Of a DNA stretch of 64,000 bases, positions 15,587 through 61,946 are shown piece after piece. A program made the translations under genes and the position numbers. Position 1 is the first letter of the stretch, and every line of letters begins with the position of its first letter. The notes below the pieces were generated by a model. The model had not been told where the DNA came from. It saw only the letters and a list, made by a program, of their open reading frames with translations, and did no database searches. Source of the stretch: a virus; the IMG/VR virus record IMGVR_UViG_3300021962_000066, positions 1 through 64,000 of that record; one strand, 5' to 3'.

Positions 15587-16219
15587 ATGCTCACCGAGCA
15601 AAAGAATATATGGAGGCTGTACAACGAAGCTCGTCGAGTCGAGGGGGAAAAGGTACAAGGGCTAGAGAGATTTATCGAGTGGATTGACTTGGCAAAGGAG
15701 AGCGAAGTATCACCTGAACTGCTCGGAGACGTAATGTCAATAATAGAGCGTTCCGGTTGTCCGAGTATTAGGTTTGAAAAACTCCGAGGTGCTTTAGGCA
15801 TTAGTCTGACGACCGCATGCATAGTTAATAGTTCGACTCTTAGCGATACTATTCAGCAGCTATTCTATGTAATCTTTCACGAGATCGCTCATCAATACCA
15901 ATACACTAAACATGGTGAAGAATTTGCGGAGGCTGTATATTTTGGTAATGGTGACCCCAGGGTTGGTGCACGATTGCTACTTAAAATAGAAAATACTGCT
16001 GATCGGTATGCTTATAGAATTGTTAAGCATCTTTTCAAAAAGCATGGCTTACCATTCAATGAGAGGACTTTTTATCTATTATATAAACACCAGAGCCCTG
16101 AAAGTTTATCTACATATATTAATAGCCTAAGAAGTGCAATTAGTCAAAATAATTTAACTAATGTTCACGAGGTAAATGATTTGATTTATAATATGGTAAA
16201 GGGTAAATTAAAAGAATAA
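15587..16219 (+). CDS. Late zinc metallopeptidase (HExxH) with targeting-like N-terminus
   Basis: Zinc motif FHEIAHQYQYTKHG at about residues 101-114, and ENTADRYAYRIVK about 35 residues on, whose Glu could be the third ligand (gluzincin layout as in ImmA/IrrE-like or minigluzincin peptidases). The N-terminus MLTEQKNIWRLYNEAR resembles the IW-x-x-Y-type peptide of other late proteins, so the enzyme may be packaged and injected. Substrate unknown. First gene of a rightward late unit running to about 20.9 kb. Confidence 0.7.
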   Translation: MLTEQKNIWRLYNEARRVEGEKVQGLERFIEWIDLAKESEVSPELLGDVMSIIERSGCPSIRFEKLRGALGISLTTACIVNSSTLSDTIQQLFYVIFHEIAHQYQYTKHGEEFAEAVYFGNGDPRVGARLLLKIENTADRYAYRIVKHLFKKHGLPFNERTFYLLYKHQSPESLSTYINSLRSAISQNNLTNVHEVNDLIYNMVKGKLKE

Positions 16220-23639: not shown

Positions 23640-24250
23640 TGACATCGATGGCGCGATTTACCGATCGCACCCCTACCATAATGGTTCTGCAAAAATACTC
23701 CCGATACGTCAGTTACTTTTAATGGTAGCAGTACTACATCTGCAAAGTTTTTCAAATGTACGAGATCATCATCACTCGCGCATTTTCCAATCTCGGGGTA
23801 TATCTTACAGGTATCTAACCACCACAGCTGAAAGAATCCTAACGCCGTTCTGCCCTCGAATCCATGTTCTACATAATCATTAACGCTAGTACCGTCTACT
23901 AACGTTCTACTACATCCATATAAAATATCTTTATGTAAGTTAACTAGTTTATCTCTGTAATTAACTGGTAATAAAATATCACTATCTAACTGTAGTATCC
24001 ACCCCGTGTCTTTCAGTCTTTGTATCCCCTCATTAACTGCTTTACCTTTTGCAAAGTTTGCGCCGTTATAATATATGTCTCTAGATAGAATATATTGTAG
24101 CTGATTTTTCTCACATAATTGTATTGTCTTTTTATCAGACTGATGAGTAACGATAATCCAATCGTCTAGTAGATCTCTATTAGGTAGTGTCTTCTCTAGG
24201 TAATCGCTATAGTCTATACATACGGTTACTGCTGATATTTTCATAGCCAC
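23621..24250 (-). CDS. GT2-like glycosyltransferase, last gene of the operon
   Basis: 209 residues of GT-A fold: strand-loop SAVTVCIDYSDYL at the start, then WIIVTHQSDKKT, FAKGKAVNEGI (substrate loop) and the metal-binding WILQLDSDILL (about 84-94). Related to glycosyltransferases that read sugar nucleotides. Downstream-most gene of the leftward operon, overlapping the deacetylase gene by 10 bp. Confidence 0.75.
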   Translation of the reverse strand: MAMKISAVTVCIDYSDYLEKTLPNRDLLDDWIIVTHQSDKKTIQLCEKNQLQYILSRDIYYNGANFAKGKAVNEGIQRLKDTGWILQLDSDILLPVNYRDKLVNLHKDILYGCSRTLVDGTSVNDYVEHGFEGRTALGFFQLWWLDTCKIYPEIGKCASDDDLVHLKNFADVVLLPLKVTDVSGVFLQNHYGRGAIGKSRHRCHYLTKP

Positions 24251-24789
24251 TCTACAGGAATTCTCTTCTTCGAATAAAATTTTGATATACCATTGCCCTG
24301 TAGGATTCTCATATAGAGCTCATCTGCGTAATTATACGGGAAACAAAACCTATCAGGTACACTGCCTAGTTGTAGCTCAAATGTATTAATCATATTTACG
24401 GTATCCGATAGATACATACGAATCTTTTCAACCATTAATGTATTCTTCCGTAGTTGGAGATGATTATGACCATGACCACCAATAAAACATTGAGGAGAAT
24501 TATATAACGATCTAATCTGTTCCCAGTTCATATAATTACTGACATCGCCTACGCTAAAGAATCGATCATGCGCATCAGTGCACGAAACGCAGTCAGAGTT
24601 CTGTTGGGTATCTTCTAACGCGACAATGTTAGTTGATATAAAAAAGATCTTTGGTGTGTTTATTTTTAGTAATTCGTTTCGAAACTTATACTGAGTATAC
24701 AATCCATCATCAAAGGTAAGTATATAATTCTGCAGAGGAAGTTTTAAAAACTCTTCCTTCATTTCATGAATCATTAGTACTTGTTTCAC
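24241..24789 (-). CDS. Polysaccharide deacetylase (NodB/CE4-like)
   Basis: Contains LTFDDGL (about 23-29) with the catalytic/metal Asp pair, GGHGHNHLQL (about 100-109) as the metal-binding His motif, and FCFPYN as the arginine/Pro motif position. At 182 residues it is a minimal CE4 domain. Expected to remove N-acetyl groups from a sugar or glycan. Overlaps the PIG-L gene by 4 bp, placing two different deacetylases side by side. Confidence 0.8.
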   Translation of the reverse strand: MKQVLMIHEMKEEFLKLPLQNYILTFDDGLYTQYKFRNELLKINTPKIFFISTNIVALEDTQQNSDCVSCTDAHDRFFSVGDVSNYMNWEQIRSLYNSPQCFIGGHGHNHLQLRKNTLMVEKIRMYLSDTVNMINTFELQLGSVPDRFCFPYNYADELYMRILQGNGISKFYSKKRIPVEWL

Positions 24790-25436
24790 GAAATTGTAAA
24801 TATAGGTTTAAAGCATTCTGCTTTATCGTATCCACACAGACTTCCGATATAACTGTCGCGGTGAGCAATCATGTCTATACTTATAGGGTCAGGTGACTCT
24901 CTTAATTCTGTATCGTAGTTTTTAATACATCGAAGTTTTATATTATGTACTGATGTAATATCATTAAAGGTCGTGAACTCCTCTAATGACTTACCCCATT
25001 CGGTACTACCGGGAATCGAAAAACAGAGTAATTCCTTTATAGAGCTATTATATCTCGGTCTAGTAGTAACTCTAACAGCTTCATATACGATTCTATGGTC
25101 TCTGTGTATATCGTACTGATAGTGCGAATAGATAACTTCAGGTTTATATGAACGTATCTCACTATCAATGTGTGACCGTATATCAGCAAACGGGACAGTA
25201 TCGAGTGAAACGTCGGAGTAATCTAATCTTATAAAATCATCTATGTTTAGTATATTACAGTTTTTTTTTGCGGCCACCTGTCTGCTTCCTGCAACATGTT
25301 CATGCCCTGGTCGATTACCTTTACAGAACGTTAGCAGTCGAATCTTATGACCTTGCTGTTTAAGCTTGGCTACAGTACCGCCCATACCAATTTCCATATC
25401 ATCCAGATGAGCTGTTATAATTAAAATATTTTTCAC
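24786..25436 (-). CDS. PIG-L/LmbE-type N-deacetylase
   Basis: 216 residues with AHLDDMEIG (9-17), the zinc motif A-H-x-D-D-x-E, and HYQYDIHRDHR (about 103-113), the second zinc-ligand region. Family members deacetylate GlcNAc-containing small molecules or glycolipids, including precursors in aminoglycoside pathways. Overlaps both neighbours by 4 bp. Confidence 0.88.
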   Translation of the reverse strand: MKNILIITAHLDDMEIGMGGTVAKLKQQGHKIRLLTFCKGNRPGHEHVAGSRQVAAKKNCNILNIDDFIRLDYSDVSLDTVPFADIRSHIDSEIRSYKPEVIYSHYQYDIHRDHRIVYEAVRVTTRPRYNSSIKELLCFSIPGSTEWGKSLEEFTTFNDITSVHNIKLRCIKNYDTELRESPDPISIDMIAHRDSYIGSLCGYDKAECFKPIFTIS

Positions 25437-26392
25437 GTATAGAAAGATACACCGCTGTTTATAATTTCCTGCATAGAAATTGTTGGTGTGTAATATTTTC
25501 TAAGTTCCAGAATATTAGGTATTCTGTAACCTATATCAATAAAGTCGTTTTTAAATGAATTACTCAGATCAGAATATACAATTTCTGATTTACTATTTAC
25601 AGCCTTTAAAACGCTATTTGCTAATTGATTAATCGTTGTAATGTTATTGGGGTTGCCTATGTTGTATATATTCCCGTAACATGACTCCGTACAACTAAGA
25701 ATATACAATGCATTAATAGTGTCTCTAACATCGCAAAACGATCTAGACTGTTCACCGGTGCCGTATACCTCAATCGGCTTATTACGTAGTGAGGCTTCAA
25801 TAAAATTCGGTAAAACAGCGCCGCCCTTACTGCATTGACCGTACCCTGTCACATTAAATGGTCTTACTATTATAGACGGGGTATCGTAACTCCTTAAAAG
25901 AAATTCCGATGTCAGTTTACATGACGAGTAACACCATCTACTTGTTCTGGAGGTTCCAATTGTAAGATTGTCAGACTCCACACAATTAGTTGAACTACCA
26001 TATATCTCACTCGTACTGGTGTATATAATCCTCTTATTAGACTTGGCAGCTGCCTCGAATACATTTGCATTTATATTGAGTATGCTTTTAATTGCATGAT
26101 TTGGGTTATTGTCTACAGTTCTAACTCCTACTGTTGATGCAAAGTGATATATAGTATCTTGATCTTTAAAAAAAGAATTGAGGGTTGTAGCAGACGTTTT
26201 AGACAGGTCGACTTTAATAATCTTATACCGATTACGAGCGTGGGACGTCTCCATTAATGTCTGTGATATCAACTTACTACGATGCCCTATATTATCTAAT
26301 ATTGTAATATAGTCAGTACCCTCTGTCAGTAGCTTTTTGAGTAAGGAGGCGCCTATAAAACCTAATCCACCTGTTATTAGTACTTTTTTCAT
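25433..26392 (-). CDS. NAD-dependent sugar epimerase/dehydratase (extended SDR)
   Basis: Full-length 319-residue extended SDR: ITGGLGFIGASL (6-17), the catalytic YSSCK motif (about 147-151) with upstream TSTSEIYG, and RPFNVTGYGQ, all typical for UDP-glucose 4-epimerase/dTDP-glucose 4,6-dehydratase relatives. Acts on a nucleotide sugar in the cytoplasm. Starts 3 bp after the upstream SDR stop. Confidence 0.9.
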   Translation of the reverse strand: MKKVLITGGLGFIGASLLKKLLTEGTDYITILDNIGHRSKLISQTLMETSHARNRYKIIKVDLSKTSATTLNSFFKDQDTIYHFASTVGVRTVDNNPNHAIKSILNINANVFEAAAKSNKRIIYTSTSEIYGSSTNCVESDNLTIGTSRTSRWCYSSCKLTSEFLLRSYDTPSIIVRPFNVTGYGQCSKGGAVLPNFIEASLRNKPIEVYGTGEQSRSFCDVRDTINALYILSCTESCYGNIYNIGNPNNITTINQLANSVLKAVNSKSEIVYSDLSNSFKNDFIDIGYRIPNILELRKYYTPTISMQEIINSGVSFYT

Positions 26393-27458: not shown

Positions 27459-28143
27459 CTACTTTTTTATAATGCCAGGTTATAGGGTCTGCTTCCATAA
27501 ATGGGACACCGTACCCTTTAATAGTCTTACAAAAGAATACAGTCGGTTTACCGTATTCAGCTCTAAACTCTTTATTGAGCTTAAGGTAATCATGCCCGTC
27601 AACGACAGTAGTAGCCCACCCATTATTGCTAAAGAAGTTAATTACCGGCTCTATAGGTAGAATGTCGCACACTTTACCTGTAACCTGTTGGTTGTTGTAA
27701 TCTACAGTAACAACTATATTTGCCAATTTCTTATGACCGATATACTGTATAGCCTCTAGAGTGCTGCCCATCTGCAATGTAGCATCAGAGAGATTGACCC
27801 ACACTTTCTGAGATGTTGTCATAGCAATGCCACTTGCAACACCTAGAGCATTCCCCATCGTCTCTTCACCGAAATCAACAAAGTCTATTTCAGCGTGTTT
27901 AACTCCAGGAGATAGATTCTCTATATGCTTGATATAGTTAAGTCTTTTCCAGATTAGATAATAGGTTTGTGAACCAAATGGCTTACCTAGAACGATTTTG
28001 TGCTTATATGGTACAACATGCTTCTCTGTAAACAGAACATCCACATAAGTGAGCATAGATAGAGCTGACGGTATGTGCGTCAGCTGCTGCTTGATAGAAT
28101 ACTGTAAAACAGTATTTGGTAAAATAGGATCAACTATATCCAT
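27430..28143 (-). CDS. Transketolase-like thiamine-diphosphate (PP) subunit
   Basis: 237 residues. Region 85-175 carries the ThDP/Mg site in the degenerate form LSDATLQMGSTLEAIQYIG ... VVTVDYNNQQV, and IKGYGVPF as in transketolase N-terminal halves. With the following gene it makes a split two-subunit ThDP enzyme that could transfer a two-carbon unit to an aldose or make a branched sugar. Overlaps the halogenase gene by 14 bp. Confidence 0.82.
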   Translation of the reverse strand: MDIVDPILPNTVLQYSIKQQLTHIPSALSMLTYVDVLFTEKHVVPYKHKIVLGKPFGSQTYYLIWKRLNYIKHIENLSPGVKHAEIDFVDFGEETMGNALGVASGIAMTTSQKVWVNLSDATLQMGSTLEAIQYIGHKKLANIVVTVDYNNQQVTGKVCDILPIEPVINFFSNNGWATTVVDGHDYLKLNKEFRAEYGKPTVFFCKTIKGYGVPFMEADPITWHYKKVDEKYLRQIS

Positions 28144-29389
28144 AATCTTTTAACCATATAGGATATGGTGTACCCCTCAAGACATCAAGTTCTCGTGCTG
28201 CTATTTCTACGAGATTCCTAGGACTAGGTTCCTTTACACCTAGCCCTGTTAATAAACTATTCCAACTCCATTCATCAAATATAGCAGACTCTGAATATAA
28301 GTTAACATCCATCTGTTTATACTGATCCCAATACTCATTACTTCTTTTTGCGTATTTATAGTGTGCTAGTATAAAACTAACTATCGAATTGTATTCCTTA
28401 TTGATCGTACGGTTATATTCATCTGCTGTAATCTTCTCTTCAATATAGTCGCATAATAGCTCAATACTGAACACACTCATAAACAGACTAGTACTTTCCA
28501 TCGGCTCGACAAAGCTTGATGATAGACCTACGGCAGCAACTGGCGGCACTCCTTCAACTATATGTGTCTCACATCTACCAGTTGCGAACTTAATTTTTTT
28601 AATCTTACTCTCATCTATCTTACTGACAGTAGATTGCTCTATAAAGTCTATAAATTCCTGTCGCACGTTGAAATTATCTGAATGCACATATCCAAATGTC
28701 ATCTCGTTTCGTAAAAACAAGTTCCATATCCACCCATATTTCATAGCGGTTGCAATTGAATAGGGTCGTATTTGATTTAGGGAGTTAGTATAACGGTGTC
28801 TATAAATGTAGGCAGAGTTGTTAGGAATTAACTGCTCTATAGATACAAAGTTATTATCAGGCTCTACTGCTCTGAGAATAGTCTTTGACAGGCCTGTACA
28901 ATCTACTACAAGATCTGCAGTACTCTTCACATCATTAAAGCTAACTTCCTTTTTTATAATAGAGAGATTTTTATAAACCTGCAATTTAGATTCTATTAGA
29001 GTTGTTAGAAGGTTAACATTAAAGTGGAATCCTATATTACTCTCCGGATGTAAAACGCCAGCTGTTACACGTTGCTGTCTGCAATGCTCATCATACGACG
29101 GAAATGCATGGAAAAACTTATCTCTTACACCGGAAAACTCATCAAATCTAAATCCAAATTTTATAGTACCGTTACAATGATCGAGAATGTCTTCTGACGA
29201 TATACCTATTTTTCTTAGAAAAATATGTACGTCAGGTACAGTTGCTTCGCCTACACCTATAGGGTTATTAACCTCCGGGTATATCCATCTGATGCTCTTA
29301 TCTGGAAATGCTTTACATAAAAATGCAACCGCTAGGTAGCCTGCTGTACCAGCACCGACAACAGTTAGGTTTTTATACTCTCGGATCAT
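28130..29389 (-). CDS. Flavin-dependent (tryptophan-) halogenase family protein
   Basis: 419 residues. FAD site VGAGTAGYLA (11-20), GVGEATVPD (45-53), and Lys77 in GTIKFGFRF aligns with the catalytic lysine of tryptophan halogenases. The family WxWxIP motif is present as GWIWNLF (last two positions changed), followed by FGYVHSD. It ends with typical VEPMESTSLF and C-terminal helices. A halogenase homologue from a cyanophage has been shown active as a halogenase, so activity is plausible, but oxygenase chemistry or another substrate is possible. Overlaps the radical SAM gene by 4 bp. Confidence 0.85.
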   Translation of the reverse strand: MIREYKNLTVVGAGTAGYLAVAFLCKAFPDKSIRWIYPEVNNPIGVGEATVPDVHIFLRKIGISSEDILDHCNGTIKFGFRFDEFSGVRDKFFHAFPSYDEHCRQQRVTAGVLHPESNIGFHFNVNLLTTLIESKLQVYKNLSIIKKEVSFNDVKSTADLVVDCTGLSKTILRAVEPDNNFVSIEQLIPNNSAYIYRHRYTNSLNQIRPYSIATAMKYGWIWNLFLRNEMTFGYVHSDNFNVRQEFIDFIEQSTVSKIDESKIKKIKFATGRCETHIVEGVPPVAAVGLSSSFVEPMESTSLFMSVFSIELLCDYIEEKITADEYNRTINKEYNSIVSFILAHYKYAKRSNEYWDQYKQMDVNLYSESAIFDEWSWNSLLTGLGVKEPSPRNLVEIAARELDVLRGTPYPIWLKDYGYS

Positions 29390-30357
29390 TTTACCTCAAC
29401 TCTCTTGTACTCTAAATCAAAAACGCATTTTTTAAATGGACATATTACATCTGCAACTGTTGTAAAATAATTGTCGTAATTATACGGAGTATTAATGTTG
29501 AATAAAGGTTTAGCAAAAGAGAATATCTCGCTGATACATCTGTAACAATTACCATCCCAATCGATTATTATTCGATCCTTAGCTACGCTGCACTTATAAC
29601 CTAAAAAGTTAGTCTTATTATTTAGCCATAGCTCAAATTTTGATACACTACTAACAGTGTATGGGTCTGTTTGGTATTTAATAGTTTTATCGAAAAAAAG
29701 GCTATGTATAGCTAATTTAGAAATGTCTTCAGTTTTTTGCAGGTAGGCTAATTCACCTACATCACTCTCAACACGGTTCACCTTGCAATCAATAAGCGGA
29801 GATATCTCACAATACTCTATACCGAGTATAGAAACAGCTGTGTTAAAGCTGCCCATAACACATTTACGACTATTGTACATAAATGTAATCTTACCAAGGA
29901 GATTAAGATTCTTAATCATAATACACTTTCTAAGAAATAAAGGCAGCTCAGTTTGAGTGTTGTGAAAGCTGCAGGATATTTTAAAGATATTACTATACTT
30001 CGCATATCTGCTGCAAAATGAAGAGAACCAATCTTCTGATCGTGACAAGTTAGTTAGAAAATCAATGGAGATATTAATCCTATTAGCAGTACAATAGGCT
30101 AGCACACTATCCAAGAAACTGTTTAAATGGGTGTAAAGAGTCGGCTCGCCTCCGTATATAAATAAGTAGATCGGTCTCTTAATGACTTTAGATATTGAGC
30201 CGATCATAGAGCAGACGTTATCTGCATTCAGCTGAGTAATAGGATTCTTATTTTGATGTAGATCGGTACAGTAATAGCAGTCGTAATTACATTTAGTTGT
30301 AAGTCTAACTTCTAAATTAAAGCGTTGCTGTTCCTCTCCTAGCGATACGATCTTTAT
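29386..30357 (-). CDS. Radical SAM protein, probable AUA start
   Basis: The first ATG (30,207) would lose the catalytic site. The frame is open to 30,366, and upstream residues include KCNYDCYYC, the CxxxCxxC cluster motif, plus later YLFIYGGEPTLY. No ATG, GTG or TTG lies between the motif and the in-frame stop. The likeliest start is ATA at 30,357, which overlaps the upstream stop as ATAA and follows AAGGAGAGG. This gives 323 residues, the size of the other four. C-terminal cysteines (CYRC, CPFKKC) suggest an auxiliary cluster. Confidence 0.8.
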   Translation of the reverse strand: MKIVSLGEEQQRFNLEVRLTTKCNYDCYYCTDLHQNKNPITQLNADNVCSMIGSISKVIKRPIYLFIYGGEPTLYTHLNSFLDSVLAYCTANRINISIDFLTNLSRSEDWFSSFCSRYAKYSNIFKISCSFHNTQTELPLFLRKCIMIKNLNLLGKITFMYNSRKCVMGSFNTAVSILGIEYCEISPLIDCKVNRVESDVGELAYLQKTEDISKLAIHSLFFDKTIKYQTDPYTVSSVSKFELWLNNKTNFLGYKCSVAKDRIIIDWDGNCYRCISEIFSFAKPLFNINTPYNYDNYFTTVADVICPFKKCVFDLEYKRVEVK

Positions 30358-31271
30358 AACCTCTCCTTATAGTATGAGTATTTTATATCACAGCAGCATC
30401 CTGTTTCTACATCGCAAATAACCTGCTTATCAATATTACTTCCGAGAGGCGTCATAGGTGTATGAGTACAGTGGTTTACTATTCGACCATCTGTCTTTAT
30501 ATACCACATTAACGGTGTGCATCGAAAACCCTTAAAAAATCTTAAGCCATGTTTTTGTATGTCATACTCATTTAAATTAGTCATCTTACCGTTGATATTA
30601 AACGGGATATTACCTGTAATACTTTTAGGATTTTCTGCAATTACTGTTTTAAATGTTTCAAAAAACTTGTCAGTATATTTAGGAGACCAGCCTGCTCTCG
30701 TTGGAATTAGAAAATTAAACCCAACTGCAACACCTCGCTCTTTTAAGGTATTAATGAGACTGATAGTGCCTTCCCAATGCTCCTCAGTGTCTGACAGATT
30801 TATATTAGGAAAAATAGTTATATGCTTTGCATCTTTTATAGCAATACACTTATCTATAAAGACTGGCTTAAAGTATTCGGGATGGTAAGAGGGTGTTATT
30901 TGCAGCTTATTACACTCAGGTATATCAAATTGCTGATAATATTCTAATGATCTAGAAAAATTTGTAACAAGTTCTATCTTAAGACAATTTTTAATTGCAT
31001 TTAGTCCCTTTACAATTTCAACCAAATCTGGATGCAATGTAGGTTCCCCGCCTAGCAACTCAACGTTAAACTTAGGTATGCGGTTAAGCGACAACTGCTT
31101 TACGACCTGTTTATACGACTGCAGCTTAGTAGTATCAATCTGCTTCTTCAAAAAGTGCTCTGCACTACAATACGAGCACCTGTAATTACACACGTCAACA
31201 AGGTCCCACGAAAATGTAACCAGCTTACAATTGGGGTCGCCAGCATGCTTAACGTCGTCTATTGTCATCAC
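30354..31271 (-). CDS. Radical SAM protein with C-terminal Cys cluster (305 aa)
   Basis: CxxxCxxC at residues 28-35 (VCNYRCSYC), LLGGEPTLHP (GGE SAM-binding motif, about 72-81), and C-terminal FRCTPLMWYIKTDGRIVNHC ... CDVETGCCCD, a SPASM/twitch-like set of cysteines. Catalyses radical chemistry on an unknown substrate. Sits 7 bp after the 323-aa paralogue and has strong sequence similarity to it in the core. Confidence 0.9.
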   Translation of the reverse strand: MMTIDDVKHAGDPNCKLVTFSWDLVDVCNYRCSYCSAEHFLKKQIDTTKLQSYKQVVKQLSLNRIPKFNVELLGGEPTLHPDLVEIVKGLNAIKNCLKIELVTNFSRSLEYYQQFDIPECNKLQITPSYHPEYFKPVFIDKCIAIKDAKHITIFPNINLSDTEEHWEGTISLINTLKERGVAVGFNFLIPTRAGWSPKYTDKFFETFKTVIAENPKSITGNIPFNINGKMTNLNEYDIQKHGLRFFKGFRCTPLMWYIKTDGRIVNHCTHTPMTPLGSNIDKQVICDVETGCCCDIKYSYYKERL

Positions 31272-31278
31272 TTATTAC

Positions 31279-32250
31279 TTATTGAGTTTCCGAGTTATTC
31301 AATAATACTACTTTTTCTTTAAAAATCTTTAACAAGCCGTCACAATTGCAGCTACCGTGTGGGCATTTGACAGGCGTAATTGCTGTAATCTTTTTAAAGT
31401 AAAACGGGTCAGTTACAAGATTAACAGGTTGATCAAAGCATACTCTATGAACGACACCATCGTATGAGATCTCGTAATTATTATTCCAGCAACTCCATCC
31501 CTTGAACCCCGTTAGTTCACGTTTAAAGAGATTGTAGTCATTGTACATAACCTTATCGCCCTTAACATCTTCAAAGGTGAAGTAGTTAGGATATGCGTTA
31601 AATCGTTTAAACTCATTATAAAATTCTTCGCTATAGTTCTCAGGCACATGTACGTCGCCGTTAGCATATAGGAAGTGTGGGTGTATCTCGATACCGCTCA
31701 TCTCTTCAAGACTATCTACAAATTTATGAATCTTAGGCCATAATTCCTTTTTTGGATTTAGCATTACATTCACCTTACATCTAAACCCCTTGTCCTTAAT
31801 AACTCTAATATTGTCCAGTAACCGTTTAAAGTCTTCTCCGTATTTGGATTCGTATTCAGTATGGAAACTCCACAAGAAGTACATGTTGTTATAGTACTTG
31901 TGCTTTCTAAAAAAATCCGTATCTTTGGATCCATTTGTAGTAATATACAATCTACCGTCCGGGTGTTTAGAAATAGCAGCATGACAGCCTTCTATTAACT
32001 CCTCGTAGCGAGGGTGGAGAGTAGGCTCTCCGCCTAAGAGACCCAAGAACACTGGTAGGGTTGCTCTACCGATACTGTTGATGACTAGTTGCTGCTTATC
32101 CCACCTATCTATCCTGCCCCACTCATCGCCATACTCCTTCATCGCATAACAATATGAACATTTAAAGTTACACTGGGTACTTACATCCCAATGAATATAT
32201 AGTCGTTGTACCTTATGACCGGAGTCATATTGCTTGATAAAATCTGTCAT
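31279..32250 (-). CDS. Radical SAM protein with C-terminal Cys cluster (323 aa)
   Basis: QCNFKCSYCYA (Cys27, 31, 34), LGLLGGEPTLHPRYEEL, and C-terminal SCWNNNYEISYDGVVHRVC plus KCPHGSCNCDG. Same architecture as the downstream 305-aa protein: core TIM-type barrel, then an auxiliary cluster domain. Its start overlaps the GT2 gene by 26 bp. Confidence 0.9.
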   Translation of the reverse strand: MTDFIKQYDSGHKVQRLYIHWDVSTQCNFKCSYCYAMKEYGDEWGRIDRWDKQQLVINSIGRATLPVFLGLLGGEPTLHPRYEELIEGCHAAISKHPDGRLYITTNGSKDTDFFRKHKYYNNMYFLWSFHTEYESKYGEDFKRLLDNIRVIKDKGFRCKVNVMLNPKKELWPKIHKFVDSLEEMSGIEIHPHFLYANGDVHVPENYSEEFYNEFKRFNAYPNYFTFEDVKGDKVMYNDYNLFKRELTGFKGWSCWNNNYEISYDGVVHRVCFDQPVNLVTDPFYFKKITAITPVKCPHGSCNCDGLLKIFKEKVVLLNNSETQ

Positions 32251-32884
32251 CTTTATTATAGGTATAGAAACTTATATTATCACCACCGCTTGTGGTCTGT
32301 ACCCAGCGCTCACCAATAATATACTTAATAGTTGCCGGTTGAAGGGAATGGAAAAGCTCTATGTCGTTATTAATATTATTACCGACCGGAAACGACTTAA
32401 TTAATGATTTTCTGAACAGTATCTGACCGAGTTGAAAGTCACGTGGGGTATATTCTTTCAGGAATTTCGATAAGTCAGTCACTTCAAATAAATGTCGGTT
32501 TGACTTAGTGACACGCTTATATGCACAATAAGGCCCGATCTCAGCTATCAGCGGTTCCGAGACATATTCCAGATAGTTAACATCCGACTCGAAGTCTAAA
32601 TTATCAAAGAAGTTTCTTTTTATGTAGTCATCATCTTCTAAGAAATACACGAACTCACATAGGGACTGATCAAACAGAAACCTATATAAATTGGAAAGGT
32701 CACTATCTCGTTTGTAGTGATATGATATAGGTATTGCAGTATTATAAATTTCGTCGATATCATTAGAGTCGTTGTTTACTATGACTTCGACACCGGGCGG
32801 CACTTTGCAGGCTAATATACTTTCAATACACCGCTTAAACAGCTTTGGTCTATTGTGGGTTAATATTAAAATGCTAAGTTTCAT
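32225..32884 (-). CDS. GT2 family glycosyltransferase (219 aa)
   Basis: Begins MKLSILILTHNRPKLFKRCI, the GT2 opening strand and loop, with VEVIVNNDSND and the metal-binding YFLEDDDYIK (about 81-90). Transfers a sugar from a nucleotide donor. Lies between two radical SAM genes, overlapping by 4 and 26 bp. Confidence 0.85.
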   Translation of the reverse strand: MKLSILILTHNRPKLFKRCIESILACKVPPGVEVIVNNDSNDIDEIYNTAIPISYHYKRDSDLSNLYRFLFDQSLCEFVYFLEDDDYIKRNFFDNLDFESDVNYLEYVSEPLIAEIGPYCAYKRVTKSNRHLFEVTDLSKFLKEYTPRDFQLGQILFRKSLIKSFPVGNNINNDIELFHSLQPATIKYIIGERWVQTTSGGDNISFYTYNKDDRFYQAI

Positions 32885-33888
32885 TTTCTATATTTTACGT
32901 GATCGAGGCCATCATAGCATGTAGTATTGATGCAAACTACATCTGACTTCAAGAATGCATTAACATCAATATCGGCTAAGTTTGCCCCGCGTATTTGTTT
33001 ATTATAGTCATCATTACAGTGATAAACCTGTAAAGTATGGTCAATAACTATATTCTTTTTGCCACACTCACACCACATATGTTTAAATTTCGTATGTATT
33101 TTGCTAGCCTTTACCTCGCTGTAGTTTTTCACAGTACCATCAATATTAAAGTTCCAGCCTTCTTCGAAATATTCTTTAAAGTGTGGATATTTTCTGGTAA
33201 AGTATCTATACTCTAAACTCTTACCATTATCATCTCCTCTTAAATAGTCATCAGTTAGGTGCACCTTATAATCTGGTAAGTTGAGAAAAGTTAAATTTTC
33301 TATCTCAGTAAATTTCAGCTTTATCTTGCCGGGGAATCTACTATTTAAAAGATTAAACTCAGATAGAAATTGATCCTCTCTACCGATTTCTGTACTAAAG
33401 AAGCACAACCCCATAGCATTGTATTTGTTGCTTAGATACAGTTTTTTTGAAAACTCATCGACCGACTGCTTACCTATATGATAGCTACTGCAAATGTCAA
33501 TTTTTGCCGTACAGGTAGTAGCTGTTTGTAGAAATACCTCTAAACGGTCATAAGCAATACTTAAATTTGTCTGGGTTTGTAGGAAGAGTTCTCTATCGGA
33601 AAATATCTTTATAAGTTCAAAGTGTAAATGTTCCCAATATCTGCTTAGCGTTGGCTCTCCGCCATAGAAGTAGAAAAACAACCGCCTTTTGCTCACGGGT
33701 ATTTGAGACAGTTTAGAAATTACTGCTGCACAGTCTGCCTCAGACCACTGCGTAGACGTGTTGTTATACTCATTACAGAACCAGCATGCGTGATTACACT
33801 TGAATGATGGTTTTAAAGTGACTTTCAGATCATACTCAGGGAATTGAGCAGTCTTTATTATCTCAAACTTATGTATTAAAGCAGACAT
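32881..33888 (-). CDS. Radical SAM protein with C-terminal Cys cluster (335 aa)
   Basis: KCNHACWFCNE (Cys31, 35, 38), FYFYGGEPTLSRYW, and C-terminal MWCECGKK ... VYHCNDDYN ... VCINTTCYDG. It shares the core and the cysteine layout with its paralogues, but the sequences have diverged enough to expect different substrates or positions of attack. Overlaps the upstream gene by 20 bp. Confidence 0.9.
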   Translation of the reverse strand: MSALIHKFEIIKTAQFPEYDLKVTLKPSFKCNHACWFCNEYNNTSTQWSEADCAAVISKLSQIPVSKRRLFFYFYGGEPTLSRYWEHLHFELIKIFSDRELFLQTQTNLSIAYDRLEVFLQTATTCTAKIDICSSYHIGKQSVDEFSKKLYLSNKYNAMGLCFFSTEIGREDQFLSEFNLLNSRFPGKIKLKFTEIENLTFLNLPDYKVHLTDDYLRGDDNGKSLEYRYFTRKYPHFKEYFEEGWNFNIDGTVKNYSEVKASKIHTKFKHMWCECGKKNIVIDHTLQVYHCNDDYNKQIRGANLADIDVNAFLKSDVVCINTTCYDGLDHVKYRK

Positions 33889-34828
33889 TCTGTATAATAT
33901 TAATTATGCTATCATCGCTCTGAAGCGATACCGAACTAATGTCTGTGTCTATATCAAGCTTTCGATATTTTAACCCGGTGTCTATATTTAAATATGCCTC
34001 GTCGATGTTATAATAGATAACATCTTTACCGTAATGCTTACACTCAGCAATAAATCTCGGGCTACAGTCGAACATTGTAGTCGTCGGAGTATATATGTAT
34101 GTTGAAAACTTACTAAACAGATCTAAAACAGGTGCAGATAGAAAACTAACCTCAGTAATATGCTTAAACTTATCGGTGTATGCTTCAGGGAATGATGTTA
34201 TAGCTATAAATTTTTTAAATTGAGGGTAAAGTTGAGACATCTGACAAAGGATTTCGTCAGATATGGCTCTACAGTTCTTAGTACAGTATAGTAATGCAGT
34301 ATCGACCTCTGCTGATACTGCAGACTTAAGCTTAGAGAAGAGTATTTTTTTCCTGTAGTCTATTGCAATATTAATATCTTTTGGCGTGCATTTATATACC
34401 CGGTTATCCTGTAATAGGGTTATATTATTATACCGCAGGTCATGAAACGTATCTAAACGTGAACACTTAAACGCCAACACGTTATCGAATATTAGTTTTA
34501 CACCGAAGTGTTGAAAGTTTCTATTTAAGCCGCCATCAACGAAGAGAATATTCTTGCCCTTTAATATTTTTGGTCTAGATGCAAAGTAAGTATTATTCCT
34601 TATATCGCTAACCTCTCTGCTTGTTACATTATACTTATCAGTAATGATTGACTCAATTTCACTCCAAGTGAAGTCTTCTCCTATGAATATGCCAGTTTTA
34701 TATCGCTGTGAAAGTATGAAGTAGTAGTCAAAAATTTCATAAATATGCCCGCATATTCCGTGATTATTGTCAGGAGGCCAGGTAACTGATAAAAATATAT
34801 CATAGTTTGCATCTAATACTTTAATCAT
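33869..34828 (-). CDS. Putative glycosyltransferase-like protein (319 aa)
   Basis: No named family recognised with certainty. The two-halved alpha/beta layout, the GKNILFVDGGLN segment and the C-terminal SPRFIAECKHYGKDVIYYN, which resembles the donor-binding end of GT-B glycosyltransferases, make a GT-B enzyme plausible. Overlaps by 8 and 20 bp with radical SAM genes on both sides. Confidence 0.5.
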   Translation of the reverse strand: MIKVLDANYDIFLSVTWPPDNNHGICGHIYEIFDYYFILSQRYKTGIFIGEDFTWSEIESIITDKYNVTSREVSDIRNNTYFASRPKILKGKNILFVDGGLNRNFQHFGVKLIFDNVLAFKCSRLDTFHDLRYNNITLLQDNRVYKCTPKDINIAIDYRKKILFSKLKSAVSAEVDTALLYCTKNCRAISDEILCQMSQLYPQFKKFIAITSFPEAYTDKFKHITEVSFLSAPVLDLFSKFSTYIYTPTTTMFDCSPRFIAECKHYGKDVIYYNIDEAYLNIDTGLKYRKLDIDTDISSVSLQSDDSIINIIQNVCFNT

Positions 34829-35846
34829 ACATACCGGATCTATAGAAGTTAACTCGTCTTATCTTCTTGCCCGAGACGGGGTATACCGGTGCATCTAGCT
34901 TCTTTTCAATCCCGTCACAAATATAGTAAAATTTACAGGTAATACAACTGTTAGGCTTTTTATAATCATTTGATCGATCTTTTGCAGCAACATCATGCGC
35001 TATTAAAATCTTCTCATTCTCAGTATACGCTTTAGATACATCTAGCGTACCACTATACATCTCTTTATTCCAATCATACCTATCGTATATGTGTTGATAC
35101 TGATTACATACGTACTTTTCGTAGCCAATCATATAGCAATACGGGGTATATCGGACATTAATAGTCTTTATATCGTCTTTTATAATGTCGATACACTTCT
35201 TAATATGGGTTGTGAGGGTTAAATAGTCAGCCTGTTCAAAATTTTTATTATCCTCCCAATAGTTAAGAGTAAGAAAATTAATCTCAAGAGGCTTAATTGA
35301 TAATAGAAGCTTACTGTACTCTTCCAACCCTTCGCAGTTCTTTTGATAAACTGTGCAATTTATTCTGACAATAATTTTATGTTTTTTAGCATTGTCGATT
35401 GCTTGGAGTATCTTAATATAAGAACCCTTTCTATCAGTAATCTGATCGTGTACCTGTTCGTTAAATCCATGGAGACTAAATAGTATCTCTTTTAGTCCGT
35501 GTTCTTTCGATTTCTTAAGAAAGGCTTCATTAGCAAATTTATAGCCGTTACTAAGACAGCTAATATGTTCAAATCTTTGATTACAGTAATCTAGGAGCTC
35601 AAACCAATCTTTATGTACACTTGACTCACCACCTGAAAGATCGACCTCAGTAATACCATATCGGTGTAGATAATCGACCCTGTCCTTAATTACCGATAGT
35701 GGGGTATTTACATCAAGACGGTCCTTATAGTAGCAAAACTCGCAATTATAATTGCAGAGTGTACCTGTATCTAATTTTGCTCTGTTACACCGTTTTGTAT
35801 CAAAATCTATATCTATGCCGTGAGTACTAATGACGTTAAGATTCAT
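34821..35846 (-). CDS. Radical SAM protein, most divergent of the five (341 aa)
   Basis: The ATG at 35,846 is preferred to a TTG nine bases earlier. TLCNYNCEFCYYK (Cys31, 35, 38), VDLSGGESSVHKDW, and C-terminal SCITCKFYYICDG (CxxCx6C), a SPASM-like end. It lacks the GGEPTL form of the others, so it is a separate branch. Among known radical SAM enzymes this looks nearest to SPASM/twitch-type; substrate unknown. Overlaps the upstream gene by 11 bp. Confidence 0.88.
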   Translation of the reverse strand: MNLNVISTHGIDIDFDTKRCNRAKLDTGTLCNYNCEFCYYKDRLDVNTPLSVIKDRVDYLHRYGITEVDLSGGESSVHKDWFELLDYCNQRFEHISCLSNGYKFANEAFLKKSKEHGLKEILFSLHGFNEQVHDQITDRKGSYIKILQAIDNAKKHKIIVRINCTVYQKNCEGLEEYSKLLLSIKPLEINFLTLNYWEDNKNFEQADYLTLTTHIKKCIDIIKDDIKTINVRYTPYCYMIGYEKYVCNQYQHIYDRYDWNKEMYSGTLDVSKAYTENEKILIAHDVAAKDRSNDYKKPNSCITCKFYYICDGIEKKLDAPVYPVSGKKIRRVNFYRSGMYD

Positions 35847-36549
35847 TGCAAACAAAATCCGGGGCAGGCAATAAAAGCGAAGGCCAGAATGAGGTTAATG
35901 CTTTAACGGTTTTGAATTGGGTTAGATCAACTTCTTGAGGCACATCTCGAAACATTTGCTTGATTATAGCTATATCAGCAATATCGCTCGACAATGAACT
36001 AGTCAATGTCTCCTTCTCTAGGTTATCTAACTCCTGTAGATTCTTATTTCGATGCTCACGTATTAACTTCATCCAGCCTACTCGACACTGATTTAAAGTA
36101 GTCTCGTCAACTGATTCACCCTCTATATCTCGCTTATCATCTATGCCTAGATGCTTGCAGAGTATTAGCGGGGTTCTGTAAGCATTCGGATTTGTTCCGA
36201 ATATATGATTAAACGTATCAATCTGAAATAATCCGGTGTATAGCTTAGCCTCAGTATACCACCTAGTGAAGATCTGTTCGCTCTTTTCGAAAAATTCAGG
36301 GGATTGTTTAGAGTAGAATTTAGCTATGTCCTCACCGAGTAGAGGTACGGTTTGACCACATGACATAAGTATACCGATATTATCACTATTGACCTCCACC
36401 TCACGCTGTAAAATTTCATCAAAAAATCCGTTATTTGAGTTGTTGCCCTTCTTGACGTATATAAAGCGCTCTATATGGTTAGTTCGAACACCAATGACGC
36501 AGTGGGTATTATCATTAACGCCTCTTGCCCAGTTATGAATTGTATGCAT
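35836..36549 (-). CDS. Unknown protein leading the biosynthetic operon (237 aa)
   Basis: First gene of the overlapping operon. Unrecognised; residues 60-150 are helical with several Trp/Tyr, and the C-terminus reads SFWPSLLLPAPDFVCNES, a compact hydrophobic end with a Pro/Cys tail. Could be an enzyme, a carrier or the modified substrate itself; none is shown. Starts 3 bp after the structural gene upstream. Confidence 0.6.
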   Translation of the reverse strand: MHTIHNWARGVNDNTHCVIGVRTNHIERFIYVKKGNNSNNGFFDEILQREVEVNSDNIGILMSCGQTVPLLGEDIAKFYSKQSPEFFEKSEQIFTRWYTEAKLYTGLFQIDTFNHIFGTNPNAYRTPLILCKHLGIDDKRDIEGESVDETTLNQCRVGWMKLIREHRNKNLQELDNLEKETLTSSLSSDIADIAIIKQMFRDVPQEVDLTQFKTVKALTSFWPSLLLPAPDFVCNES

Positions 36550-58298: not shown

Positions 58299-58841
58299 CT
58301 AGCTGCGTGTCCAGTAATGGTAAGATACTGTTGCATCAAACTCTATCGCACTACCCCCACCGGTCATATCGTAACCAAGGGCGCCACAGGTAATAATACT
58401 AACACCAACTAATTTATATTGTGCGATTTTCGTAAGCTGATTGTCTAGCTGAACCATGTTAATAGTTGACGTTGCGCGCGGAGTAAAGTAATTACCGGTG
58501 CTGTTTGCATCATCAAAAACGTCACGCGACCACTGCTCGAACTTCTGCCGAATCTTGGACTGAGCATCAGCATAGAATTTAAGAGAATACGCCGCACTAC
58601 CCGGGTAAGTAGCACCACCTGGTACGTTAAACGTTAATCCCATGTACGGTATTGGTACGTTTGTAATGTCACGCGCAGGTAAAGTAGCTGACTTTAGATA
58701 TACTAAATCATCCTCATCATATGTTGCAGAAGTTGCGCCGCCTGTGTCGATTGAGAGTAGTCTAAAGTTAAAATCACGCGCAAAGTCGCGATTCTGCGCT
58801 ACTCGGTAGAAATCTGTGATTGATTGTTTTACGTCAGCCAT
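58299..58841 (-). CDS. gp19: Tail tube protein, gp19
   Basis: 180 residues; DFARDFNFRLLSID, TLPARDITNVPIPYMGLTFN and KFEQWSRDVFDDANSTGNY are typical of T4-type gp19, the polymer of the inner tube. It has its own TATAAATA promoter and terminator, in line with a high-copy protein. Confidence 0.93.
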   Translation of the reverse strand: MADVKQSITDFYRVAQNRDFARDFNFRLLSIDTGGATSATYDEDDLVYLKSATLPARDITNVPIPYMGLTFNVPGGATYPGSAAYSLKFYADAQSKIRQKFEQWSRDVFDDANSTGNYFTPRATSTINMVQLDNQLTKIAQYKLVGVSIITCGALGYDMTGGGSAIEFDATVSYHYWTRS

Positions 58842-58912: not shown

Positions 58913-61255
58913 CTAACCAACTATCTCTTGAAAGTCAACGCTGGTTCTAGTTGCATAGAAGTTACAGAGAATAAACTCTGCAGTTCTAACCGGCTTAAGG
59001 TAAATATCGACTACCAATTCATTAGCGTCGATTATATCAGGGGTATTATTTCTCTCATCGCAGATGATCAAGTAATCATAAACGCCTTCGGTATTCTTAG
59101 CATTTTCGAAGATTGGTGTTAAAGTATTAATAACCCGAGTCCTGGTAAGTAGGGTGTTTGGTTCAAATACGAAGAATTTGAGAGTTTCTTTCGTGACCTT
59201 TTCTAGTGCAATAAACAATCTACGAACATTAATTCTATCGAACGCAGACGGCTTCTTGAGTAGTGTCTTTTGACCGTATATAACGAATCCTTCGTTCGGA
59301 AAGAATGCAACCGGGTTAAAGGAACTCTTGTATAAAGTATCACGATCCTTCTGTCTCGGGTATATCGCAATATCGAGTGCATTACCTACAATCCCTCGGG
59401 TAAACCCGGCAGGAGCATACCACGGTTGGAAGTTGGCGTCCGTATTTGCCATAATACTCGCAGCATAACCAGAGAACGGCACCCACGTAAACATACCGGA
59501 CGACGGGTCGCTTACCTTTACACAGGTTGCATATGTAGTAATATAGCTCGTATTATATGAAGCATATAGATTCCTGAGCGGATAGTAGATATCCTTACTA
59601 ATAGTTGCACTTTCCTTATTAATATTTTTAAATGTGCCGCCTTGTATAAAGATGTTAATAATAGGATCTGCGATTATAATAAAATCTTTTCTAGAAACAT
59701 CGTCTACTAGTGCCTGGAATGTATTGAGCACAGCCCTATAGTTACTAGTACTGGGATCAGTACTATCAGGCTGACTTTGTTTATATAACTTAGTAGCTGC
59801 ACCAGTTGAGGAAGCTGCGGAGCCTATATCGAAATATGTAAAGTCATCAAACGACCCGTCGTTAGCACAGGCCGCGGCAAATATAGTACCAAGACCAGCC
59901 TCGACAGCTATATCAAACGGAAATACATCTGAATTCTTAAAAGTATCGAAAATTTTAGTTAACTTAGTAGGAACATTACCAATTATTTTAACGCTGAGAT
60001 CGACCGGATTATATACGCCAGCCGGGTATAGGGCATCGGCTGGGCCAATTGCTGCGACTGCGTCTTGAATACTAGCGGTACCGGATAACCCAATAAAATC
60101 GCATCTATTTTGCGCGTTAGCCGCACTAGTAAACTGATTTATAGTATCTAGATTAGGACTATCGGTCAACCCGGGGCTAGCTATTCTTATCTTGACAGTT
60201 GGTAAACCGTTGTTACCGAGATACGTATTCCCTTGAATTATTCTACTGAGATACGGATTCGTCTTAACAATTATATTAGGAGACTTTGATGCGATAGTAT
60301 CTATAAAGTAGCTCGTAGCAGGTCCTCCTTGATCGCTGTTTTGCTGCCTATGAGAATCAAGGGAACCTTGATATACTTCGTTTAAGTTTACACTTAATTG
60401 AATACTATTCTTACTGAAAACAGATTGGCTCAGTTTAAATACACAAATTGATAATATATCATCATACGATCTATCCTGAGTCAGATCAAACGACGATGCT
60501 CCGGATTCGATTATCTGTGATACACTGCCTTCTTCCGTATCACCACCAGTTAGCGCGGACCCGATTCGGTCGGTGCTTAAAATTTCAAAACTATCTTCAC
60601 TAGATAGAGTATATATTCTACGAATTGATTTATTCTCGAGCCCCGGAGATAAGGTTGTATTATCTACAATACCGATGTAGTACCCCTCCTTTTGAGAGCT
60701 TACATCTGATTGAGACTGATTTGCAATTATTAGTGCAGCATGCTTTAGAGAGGAGATGTTACTGTTTAACGTGCTTTGACCGCATGCTGTACTGTAGGCA
60801 AATAGACTGCCCTGTAACCAGCTGTCATACTGTGGCCGAGTTAGAGTATAATGCGTAGGTGCACCGAGCATATAAACACCGCTTGTTTGAATATAGTGCT
60901 GTGCTGTTAAGGCCGCGACGCCACCGGTACAATCACCAGCAGACAGATATATTGCAGGAAAACCTAAGACGCTATAATTATCGACAGCAGTACCATAAGG
61001 TAGTCTAGTAACTAATACATCTGCAGGACTCTGAAGAGCTGCATAGACAGTGTGATAGAAATATCTTTCTGCACCGTTTGTCGGCTTACCGTAAATTTGT
61101 TCAAATTCAGATATGCTGGCGATCTTAATAGCGTCATCTGTCGGTCCCTTCTGAGCAAAACCAGGAATGAAGATAGTAGTCGCAGCAGATCGTATTGGAC
61201 GTAACGAAAGATCAACTTCGTTAATCGATACCCCAGGAGATTCAAGTCGTGCCAT
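58913..61255 (-). CDS. gp18: Tail sheath protein, gp18
   Basis: 780 residues, T4-type sheath: N-terminus SPGVSINEVDLS, TTIFIPGFAQKGPTD, GKPTNGAERYFYHTVYAAL, and C-terminal RDTLYKSSFNPVAFFPNEGF, KPSAFDRINVRRLFIALEK and DIYLKPVRTAEFI. Forms the contractile outer tail. Longer than T4 gp18 (659 aa) through insertions in the middle. Own late promoter. Confidence 0.95.
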   Translation of the reverse strand: MARLESPGVSINEVDLSLRPIRSAATTIFIPGFAQKGPTDDAIKIASISEFEQIYGKPTNGAERYFYHTVYAALQSPADVLVTRLPYGTAVDNYSVLGFPAIYLSAGDCTGGVAALTAQHYIQTSGVYMLGAPTHYTLTRPQYDSWLQGSLFAYSTACGQSTLNSNISSLKHAALIIANQSQSDVSSQKEGYYIGIVDNTTLSPGLENKSIRRIYTLSSEDSFEILSTDRIGSALTGGDTEEGSVSQIIESGASSFDLTQDRSYDDILSICVFKLSQSVFSKNSIQLSVNLNEVYQGSLDSHRQQNSDQGGPATSYFIDTIASKSPNIIVKTNPYLSRIIQGNTYLGNNGLPTVKIRIASPGLTDSPNLDTINQFTSAANAQNRCDFIGLSGTASIQDAVAAIGPADALYPAGVYNPVDLSVKIIGNVPTKLTKIFDTFKNSDVFPFDIAVEAGLGTIFAAACANDGSFDDFTYFDIGSAASSTGAATKLYKQSQPDSTDPSTSNYRAVLNTFQALVDDVSRKDFIIIADPIINIFIQGGTFKNINKESATISKDIYYPLRNLYASYNTSYITTYATCVKVSDPSSGMFTWVPFSGYAASIMANTDANFQPWYAPAGFTRGIVGNALDIAIYPRQKDRDTLYKSSFNPVAFFPNEGFVIYGQKTLLKKPSAFDRINVRRLFIALEKVTKETLKFFVFEPNTLLTRTRVINTLTPIFENAKNTEGVYDYLIICDERNNTPDIIDANELVVDIYLKPVRTAEFILCNFYATRTSVDFQEIVG

Positions 61256-61304: not shown

Positions 61305-61946
61305 TTATATAGAATCAACTTGCTCTATTAAAGAAACAGCAAATTGACTATATTCAAATTCCGCTGTTATATCGATTTCGCTGCCATCTCTATAAGATAG
61401 ATCAATTCCTCCTAAAGTACTCGGGAAAGCCCCAGTATAAACGAACTCTGCTACCCTTTTTTCGTATTCGTCTAAAGCGAATATTGATATATCAGTCGAG
61501 TAGTATTGCAGTTGCTTACTATATGTACCTACATGAACATCGGCACCATTTACCAATTTACTCGGCAAATTAGTTACATCGACAATATCATTGCTGTCGT
61601 ATATTGATTTTTTATCGTCGTTTAATATATCTAACCACTTATATATGAACCAGTAATTATTAAATCTGTTATCAACTGTAAAGTTAACAGTTAAGGTCGG
61701 ATACGTTAAACGACTATGGCTTGAAACTTTTACGGATTGTCCTGCATATTTATTATCAATAGAGGGGACTTTAATAGCCGGGGCTATCACCCCATACACC
61801 GACATGGTAAATGTATCAGGGTCTGCATATAAATCATTATGTGCAAATTTACGAATCATTCCTTTAAGCCCTTTAGGGACTGGTATGACCATTATAAACT
61901 TATCCTTACGTACTTTATTGAACGGCGATTGAATATAATCACTCAT
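61305..61946 (-). CDS. Tail-tube-like structural protein (213 aa)
   Basis: Beta-rich protein of 213 residues: VNFTVDNRFNNYWFIYKWLDILND is the tube-type NNY...W helix segment, preceded by YPTLT and followed by beta strands (IDITAEFEYSQF). Similar small proteins in marine T4-like phages sit between terminase and sheath. Probably tail completion or second tube-type protein. Start overlaps the terminase end by 8 bp. Confidence 0.6.
   Translation of the reverse strand: MSDYIQSPFNKVRKDKFIMVIPVPKGLKGMIRKFAHNDLYADPDTFTMSVYGVIAPAIKVPSIDNKYAGQSVKVSSHSRLTYPTLTVNFTVDNRFNNYWFIYKWLDILNDDKKSIYDSNDIVDVTNLPSKLVNGADVHVGTYSKQLQYYSTDISIFALDEYEKRVAEFVYTGAFPSTLGGIDLSYRDGSEIDITAEFEYSQFAVSLIEQVDSI

Follow-up and report, generated by a model that had tools for sequence, protein, structure and literature searches.

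The radical-SAM operon and its genes

The window analysed here is a stretch of 64,000 nucleotides (positions 1 to 64,000) and is taken from the 83,783-base virus record IMGVR_UViG_3300021962_000066. It carries an operon with five radical-SAM genes (Pfam PF04055, E-values from 1e-21 to 4e-5), hereafter referred to as RS1 to RS5, together with a tryptophan-halogenase-family gene, a split transketolase, sugar epimerases, a PIG-L deacetylase, a polysaccharide-deacetylase-like gene and glycosyltransferases. The genes central to the present analysis are as follows.

34821-35855, minus strand: RS1, radical-SAM gene (Pfam) with a TTG start and an in-frame ATG three codons later
32881-33888, minus strand: RS2, radical-SAM gene (open reading frame and Pfam)
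31279-32250, minus strand: RS3, radical-SAM gene with the highest conservation in the array (64-66% in relatives that carry RS5)
30354-31271, minus strand: RS4, radical-SAM gene immediately upstream of RS5
29386-30357, minus strand: RS5, radical-SAM open reading frame of 323 amino acids, counted from the ATA at 30357
28130-29389, minus strand: tryptophan-halogenase-family gene (PF04820, E-value 3e-56), with an ATGA overlap with the RS5 stop codon

Overlaps of the ATGA/GTGA type recur in the operon, between 28130-29389 and RS5, 32881-33888 and 32225-32884, 25433-26392 and 24786-25436, and 24786-25436 and 24241-24789. A search for tRNA genes found none in the record, so that any special decoding would be supplied by the host.

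An open frame without a canonical start codon

The features surrounding the beginning of RS5 are listed below.

30363-30369, minus strand: Shine-Dalgarno (SD) match UAAGGAG, 7 bp to the anti-SD, with a 5-nt spacer to the ATA
30355-30357, minus strand: candidate AUA start; no other AUN codon ahead of the motif has a normal distance to the SD
30354-30356, minus strand: RS4 stop codon TAA, overlapping the ATA as ATAA
30268-30291, minus strand: CxxxCxxC motif CNYDCYYC, its three Cys residues invariant in comparison with the orthologues
30205-30207, minus strand: first in-frame ATG, residue 51 from the ATA, with an SD energy of +0.4 kcal/mol

The RS5 frame is limited upstream by an in-frame stop, TAA at 30369-30367, after which it reads GGA GAG GTT ATA (30357) AAG ATC and continues to the TGT at 30291. 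From this stop to the ATG at 30207, a gap of 53 codons, the frame holds no ATG, GTG or TTG; given the operon codon frequencies, such a gap has a probability of 0.22 and is not rare by itself. A listing of open reading frames with canonical starts shows RS5 only as 29386-30207, a product of 273 amino acids that begins past the motif. The first-pass annotation had proposed that a fifth radical-SAM gene lies hidden here, with its motif ahead of the first ATG and no canonical start back to the upstream stop. Direct reading of the sequence agrees with this, the frame being open up to the stop at 30369-30367 and its upstream codons being conserved in the orthologues.

Upstream of 30207 the frame encodes GEVIKIVSLGEEQQRFNLEVRLTTKCNYDCYYC... 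The 50 codons before 30207 specify protein that is 50-52% identical to the orthologues, as against 42-44% for the rest of RS5, and conservation at their first and second positions (0.60-0.62 and 0.78-0.80, respectively) exceeds that at the third (0.28-0.42). Since these codons are conserved as protein and include the catalytic motif, RS5 begins near 30357, and its start is accordingly placed at the ATA or within one or two codons of it, as judged from the alignments. Neither a stop codon nor a frameshift interrupts the 323 codons, and the motif and the GGEP region are kept. RS5 is thus a real radical-SAM gene that is hidden from standard gene calling.

The CxxxCxxC sequence is the defining cluster motif of the radical SAM superfamily, and in RS5 it is read from 30291 to 30268. 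The match of RS5 to PF04055 (E-value 4.4e-5, 24.2 bits) is below the 29.5 cut-off; both of the orthologues scanned also match this family (best E-value 8.8e-6), and radical-SAM subfamily models match RS5 with E-values down to 7e-9, far under the models' own cut-offs. A structure model with a mean pLDDT of 53.7, too weak to assign a fold such as the partial or full TIM barrel of the superfamily, alternates strands and helices and places a strand at residues 13-18, before the motif. Foldseek searches with this weak model returned the radical-SAM proteins TigE and EpeE at E-values of 0.006-0.013 and no match of any kind below 0.001; barrel enzymes make up most of the top 50 matches.

RS5 orthologues and gene order

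Contigs with RS5 orthologues were obtained by a profile scan of IMG/VR, after which 17 related records were searched with a profile. Full-length orthologues were identified in four of the 17 and represent three distinct sequences (L090; L091 and L092, which are identical around the start and were counted as one; L096). They share 42-45% identity with RS5, the value being 43-45% in an alignment spanning residues 5-322. All three distinct orthologues start with ATG (MHNYKTVG...IFTIEVRLTSKCNYNC), 23 residues ahead of the first motif Cys as compared with 22 for the ATA of the window, so that AUA is not conserved in these independent sequences. In the alignment the orthologue ATG stands one codon ahead of the ATA; it lies inside the end of RS3, with an 8-base overlap in L090 and L091.

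These IMG/VR radical-SAM cargo operons (L090, L091/L092, L096 and others) share the gene family and largely the gene set of the window, but differ from it in arrangement. In the four orthologue records RS5 directly follows RS3 and RS4 lies further upstream, whereas the window has the order RS3-RS4-RS5; the AUA therefore sits at a gene-order junction unseen in the RS5-bearing relatives. In another contig, L110, RS3 is followed by an RS4-like gene, and a full-length RS5 orthologue is absent. ATG is the usual start state of the RS5 family, from which the window phage differs in both context and start. A comparison with relatives at the start codon had been suggested as a check; it gave ATG in three of three cases, one codon upstream of the ATA, in a different gene neighbourhood and at 42-45% identity, and these relatives are compatible with either a true AUA or a consensus error in the window phage.

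Single-protein pattern scans of viral contigs with RS5, RS4 and the halogenase gave no match. A terminase scan gave 80 loci, and a whole-record search of 49 of the 80 gave no match to RS5. One partial and distant radical-SAM match from a scan of genome contigs was left unused. A DNA search for the junction of RS4 and RS5, allowing either base (A or G) at 30355, matched four contigs (L170-L173); they were rejected, as no operon protein was found with them (tblastn, E-value 1e-8). No strain replicate of the RS5 locus was found by these searches, from which near-identical records may be omitted.

The nearest isolates at the protein level are Campylobacter phages (RS5 22-25%, RS3 30% and halogenase 36%). 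CP220 and CPt10 have been described as encoding 11-12 radical-SAM proteins in each genome, with an interchangeable five-member module (PMC2853527). Together with their relatives CP21, CP20 and CC_R7, these phages resemble the window in having several radical-SAM genes and relatives of the halogenase and the transketolase; they differ in belonging to another phage group, in the low identity and in an RS5-like gene with an ordinary ATG. In CP20 (MK408758; L087:2923-3867) a radical-SAM gene is annotated from 3169, past the motif, although an in-frame ATG lies at 2923; the annotated start is a mistake of annotation and not an unusual start codon. The radical-SAM frame at L003:3352-4119, from CP21, begins after the motif region and looks broken or split.

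The candidate AUA start and its Shine-Dalgarno sequence

SD strength was computed from the 18 nt preceding each start, paired with an assumed anti-SD tail that may differ from the one in the host. The ATA site scores -9.3 kcal/mol and ranks first among the 109 starts examined. No first canonical start in the 108 non-overlapping open reading frames is as strong, and two of the 108 match it when any start within the first 15% of the frame is allowed. This strength is reached by 0.88% of 10,000 random positions and by 48 of 5,718 ATA triplets. The mean SD energy is -0.89 at starts and -1.67 at random positions, which indicates that the phage mostly avoids SDs, and the SD-poor genome suggests that its host may make little use of them. 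That the strongest SD belongs to the gene without a canonical start is consistent with its offsetting a weak start codon, though it is no proof of this; the same bases also encode part of the RS4 C-terminus (Lys-Glu), and the SD might therefore be due to chance (0.9%). The earlier statements that the ATA follows an SD at normal distance and overlaps the previous stop in the manner of the ATGA overlaps of the operon are both upheld, the SD being UAAGGAG with a 5-nt spacer and several ATGA/GTGA overlaps having been seen.

The predicted RNA fold leaves the AUA and five of the seven SD bases unpaired, and the degree of structure in the region is unremarkable (z 0.37). A search for promoters and terminators near the RS5 start gave none above chance. 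Two copies of AGGAGAGG, 27 nt apart, span the RS4/RS5 junction (30333-30367, minus strand); these are its only minus-strand copies in the record, out of six when both strands are counted, and the pair is possibly the scar of a rearrangement of RS4 and RS5.

A separate observation concerns ATAAATA, which lies 5-17 nt before the start in 15 of 108 open reading frames, and at 5-9 nt in 12 of those, where fewer than one would be expected. Examples from the window and from L004 include 58913-61255 (minus strand), 58299-58841 (minus strand) and 15587-16219 (plus strand). The sequence resembles the late promoters of T4, and transcripts beginning at it would be almost leaderless, in a genome that is SD-poor.

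Start codons across the cargo operons

Start codons were surveyed in 140 de-duplicated homologous operon gene starts from the window and the related contigs; hits starting past query residue 25, frames running off the locus edge upstream and entries with identical first 40 matched residues were dropped. ATG was found in 127 of them and only GTG or TTG in 11, while two, RS5 and a transketolase gene in L100, have none of these. Structural genes near the terminase relatives start with ATG in 103 of 103 cases. Non-ATG starts are thus more frequent in the cargo than in the structural genes (13/140 versus 0/103, p = 0.0008); for AUN-type starts considered separately the comparison is not significant (2/140 versus 0/103, p = 0.51). 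The cargo genes with GTG or TTG have stronger SDs than those with ATG (one-sided p = 0.03). The terminase open reading frame of the window (61939-63951, minus strand) is listed with a TTG start because the window ends within it; the complete record carries it on to an ATG at 64752, giving 937 amino acids.

Among 92 radical-SAM open reading frames, near-identical strains included, an ATG precedes the motif in 84, only GTG or TTG in six, and none of the three in two, namely RS5 and a gene in L145 (304-1294, plus strand). The L145 gene, which is also present in L167, L168 and L169, has AUU AAG ACA... as its candidate beginning. Its AUU overlaps the end of the upstream gene and has an SD of -6.5 kcal/mol, and homology of its product to a PapB-type model extends from residue 2. 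The surroundings of the AUU are the same in three contigs, two of them identical and the third about 1% different, which amount to two variants. The L100 gene (5475-5907, plus strand), a transketolase N-subunit at the end of its contig, has AAAGGAG 5 nt before an AUU (SD -8.2); a relative, L175, has ATG at the position of the L100 ACG, and the case for L100 as a non-canonical start is weak.

When open reading frames were screened without bias for conservation of the frame ahead of the first canonical start, 41 of 169 were flagged; L100 lay outside this screen, as its frame continues past the contig end. On inspection most of the 41 look like spurious upstream subject starts, antisense shadows or conserved upstream DNA, and only RS5 and the L145 gene were accepted.

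Interpretation and alternative explanations

The reading we favour, and hold to be moderately probable, is that RS5 is functional and starts at the AUA at 30355-30357, rescued by the strong SD and by coupling to the upstream stop, with reduced synthesis. The 7-bp UAAGGAG helix and the 5-nt spacer would bring AUA into the P site, to be read there by initiator fMet-tRNA with a third-position mismatch, and ribosomes ending RS4 could re-initiate at the ATAA overlap; re-initiation at a start that overlaps the previous stop is established (PMC2268962). The product would have the N-terminus fMet-Lys-Ile-Val and its yield would be a fraction of the AUG level. From the arrangement of these elements we infer AUA use, coupling and lower yield, and RS5 is probably an AUA-initiated phage gene. 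The first-pass annotation had left two outcomes, use of AUA or loss of an ATG; SD spacing, stop overlap and orthologue alignment favour the former. Several findings weigh against AUA: all three distinct orthologues use ATG; one A/G difference at 30355 would produce an ordinary ATGA overlap as found elsewhere in the operon; the SD might be due to chance, its bases being part of the RS4 coding sequence; the SD-poor genome points to a host that may make little use of SDs; and AUA is absent from the start switches listed in a published reconstruction (PMC5622118).

The first two of these points also speak for an error in the consensus, or the assembly of a minority variant, the real codon at 30357 being ATG. 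That the searches gave one record and no strain replicate is in keeping with such an error; however, the 30355 site is not a homopolymer, the operon genes compared with relatives show no frame breaks, and an ordinary ATG would give no reason for the strongest SD of 109, which none of the 108 other starts reaches. An error of this kind is considered unlikely. It is somewhat less likely still that a recent mutation, or the rearrangement of RS4 and RS5, destroyed the start and left RS5 with little or no translation. The AUA does lie exactly at the junction where gene order departs from all RS5-bearing relatives, AUG is the family norm and the AGGAGAGG pair marks this junction and is absent elsewhere on the minus strand; yet the other codons are intact, 323 without a stop or frameshift and with the motif and GGEP kept, and AUA need not be null, as seen with an ATG-to-ATA mutant of E. 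coli rpoS (PMC12864459).

Initiation at another near-cognate codon, the AUC at 30351 or the GUU at 30360, is improbable. Both are in frame and within two codons of the ATA, and the GUU would align with the orthologue ATG, but only AUA has the 5-nt SD spacer, the same UAAGGAG lying at a poorer 11 nt from the AUC and at 2 nt from the GUU. GUU is not known to act as a start codon. A product from the ATG at 30207, the first canonical start in frame, or a joining of RS4 and RS5 by frameshifting has very little to commend it, as the former would be devoid of the CxxxCxxC loop and of the preceding strand 13-18 predicted by the low-confidence model, though the region is conserved, and the sole possible shift zone for the latter, AAG GAG AGG TTA TAA, contains no slippery sequence by eye.

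Precedents for initiation at AUA

Among bacterial genes, infC, ccpN and citZ of Staphylococcus aureus are reported to start with AUA, and an extended SD is described for infC, ccpN and the AUU-started cvfC1 (PMC13009471). In the reporter tests of that study the starts of cvfC1, ccpN and citZ gave about 10% of the AUG level, and ccpN up to 30%; the AUA of citZ is described as lineage-specific (PMC13009471). RS5 resembles these AUA genes in its codon and, with infC and ccpN, in strong SD pairing, and reduced initiation would likewise be expected for it. It differs in that the S. aureus starts were demonstrated by ribosome profiling and reporters, whereas the RS5 start is deduced from phage sequence, and in that the non-canonical starts of ccpN and cvfC1 are reported as conserved, whereas the relatives of RS5 use ATG (PMC13009471).

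The E. coli rpoS mutant resembles RS5 in having AUA in place of AUG, and RpoS was still made in it, at a level up to 5-fold lower; the same paper cites an efficiency of up to 1% for ATA (PMC12864459). Unlike the ATAA overlap of RS5, it is a laboratory mutation in a bacterium for which the account describes no overlap with an upstream stop (PMC12864459). Weak starts are reported to pair with stronger SDs, and a reconstruction of 61,358 switches from AUG lists GUG, UUG, CUG and AUU, with AUA absent from those listed (PMC5622118). No description of a phage gene with an AUA start was found in the open-access PMC literature.

Implications

Bacterial genes that start at AUA behind a strong SD are already known, and RS5 would add a modest example. 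Gene callers restricted to ATG, GTG and TTG cut such genes past the catalytic motif, and the enzyme class is then missed. It is conceivable, though doubtful, that the cargo operons of this group of T4-like phages employ near-cognate AUN starts with strong SDs to throttle the translation of single enzymes; if so, the AUA of RS5 and the AUU of the L145 radical-SAM gene, and perhaps the start of the L100 transketolase gene, would be examples. If the AUA start is real, a phage case joins the short list of demonstrated AUA starts, and the finding would suggest a gene-by-gene tuning of initiation strength in phage metabolic operons.
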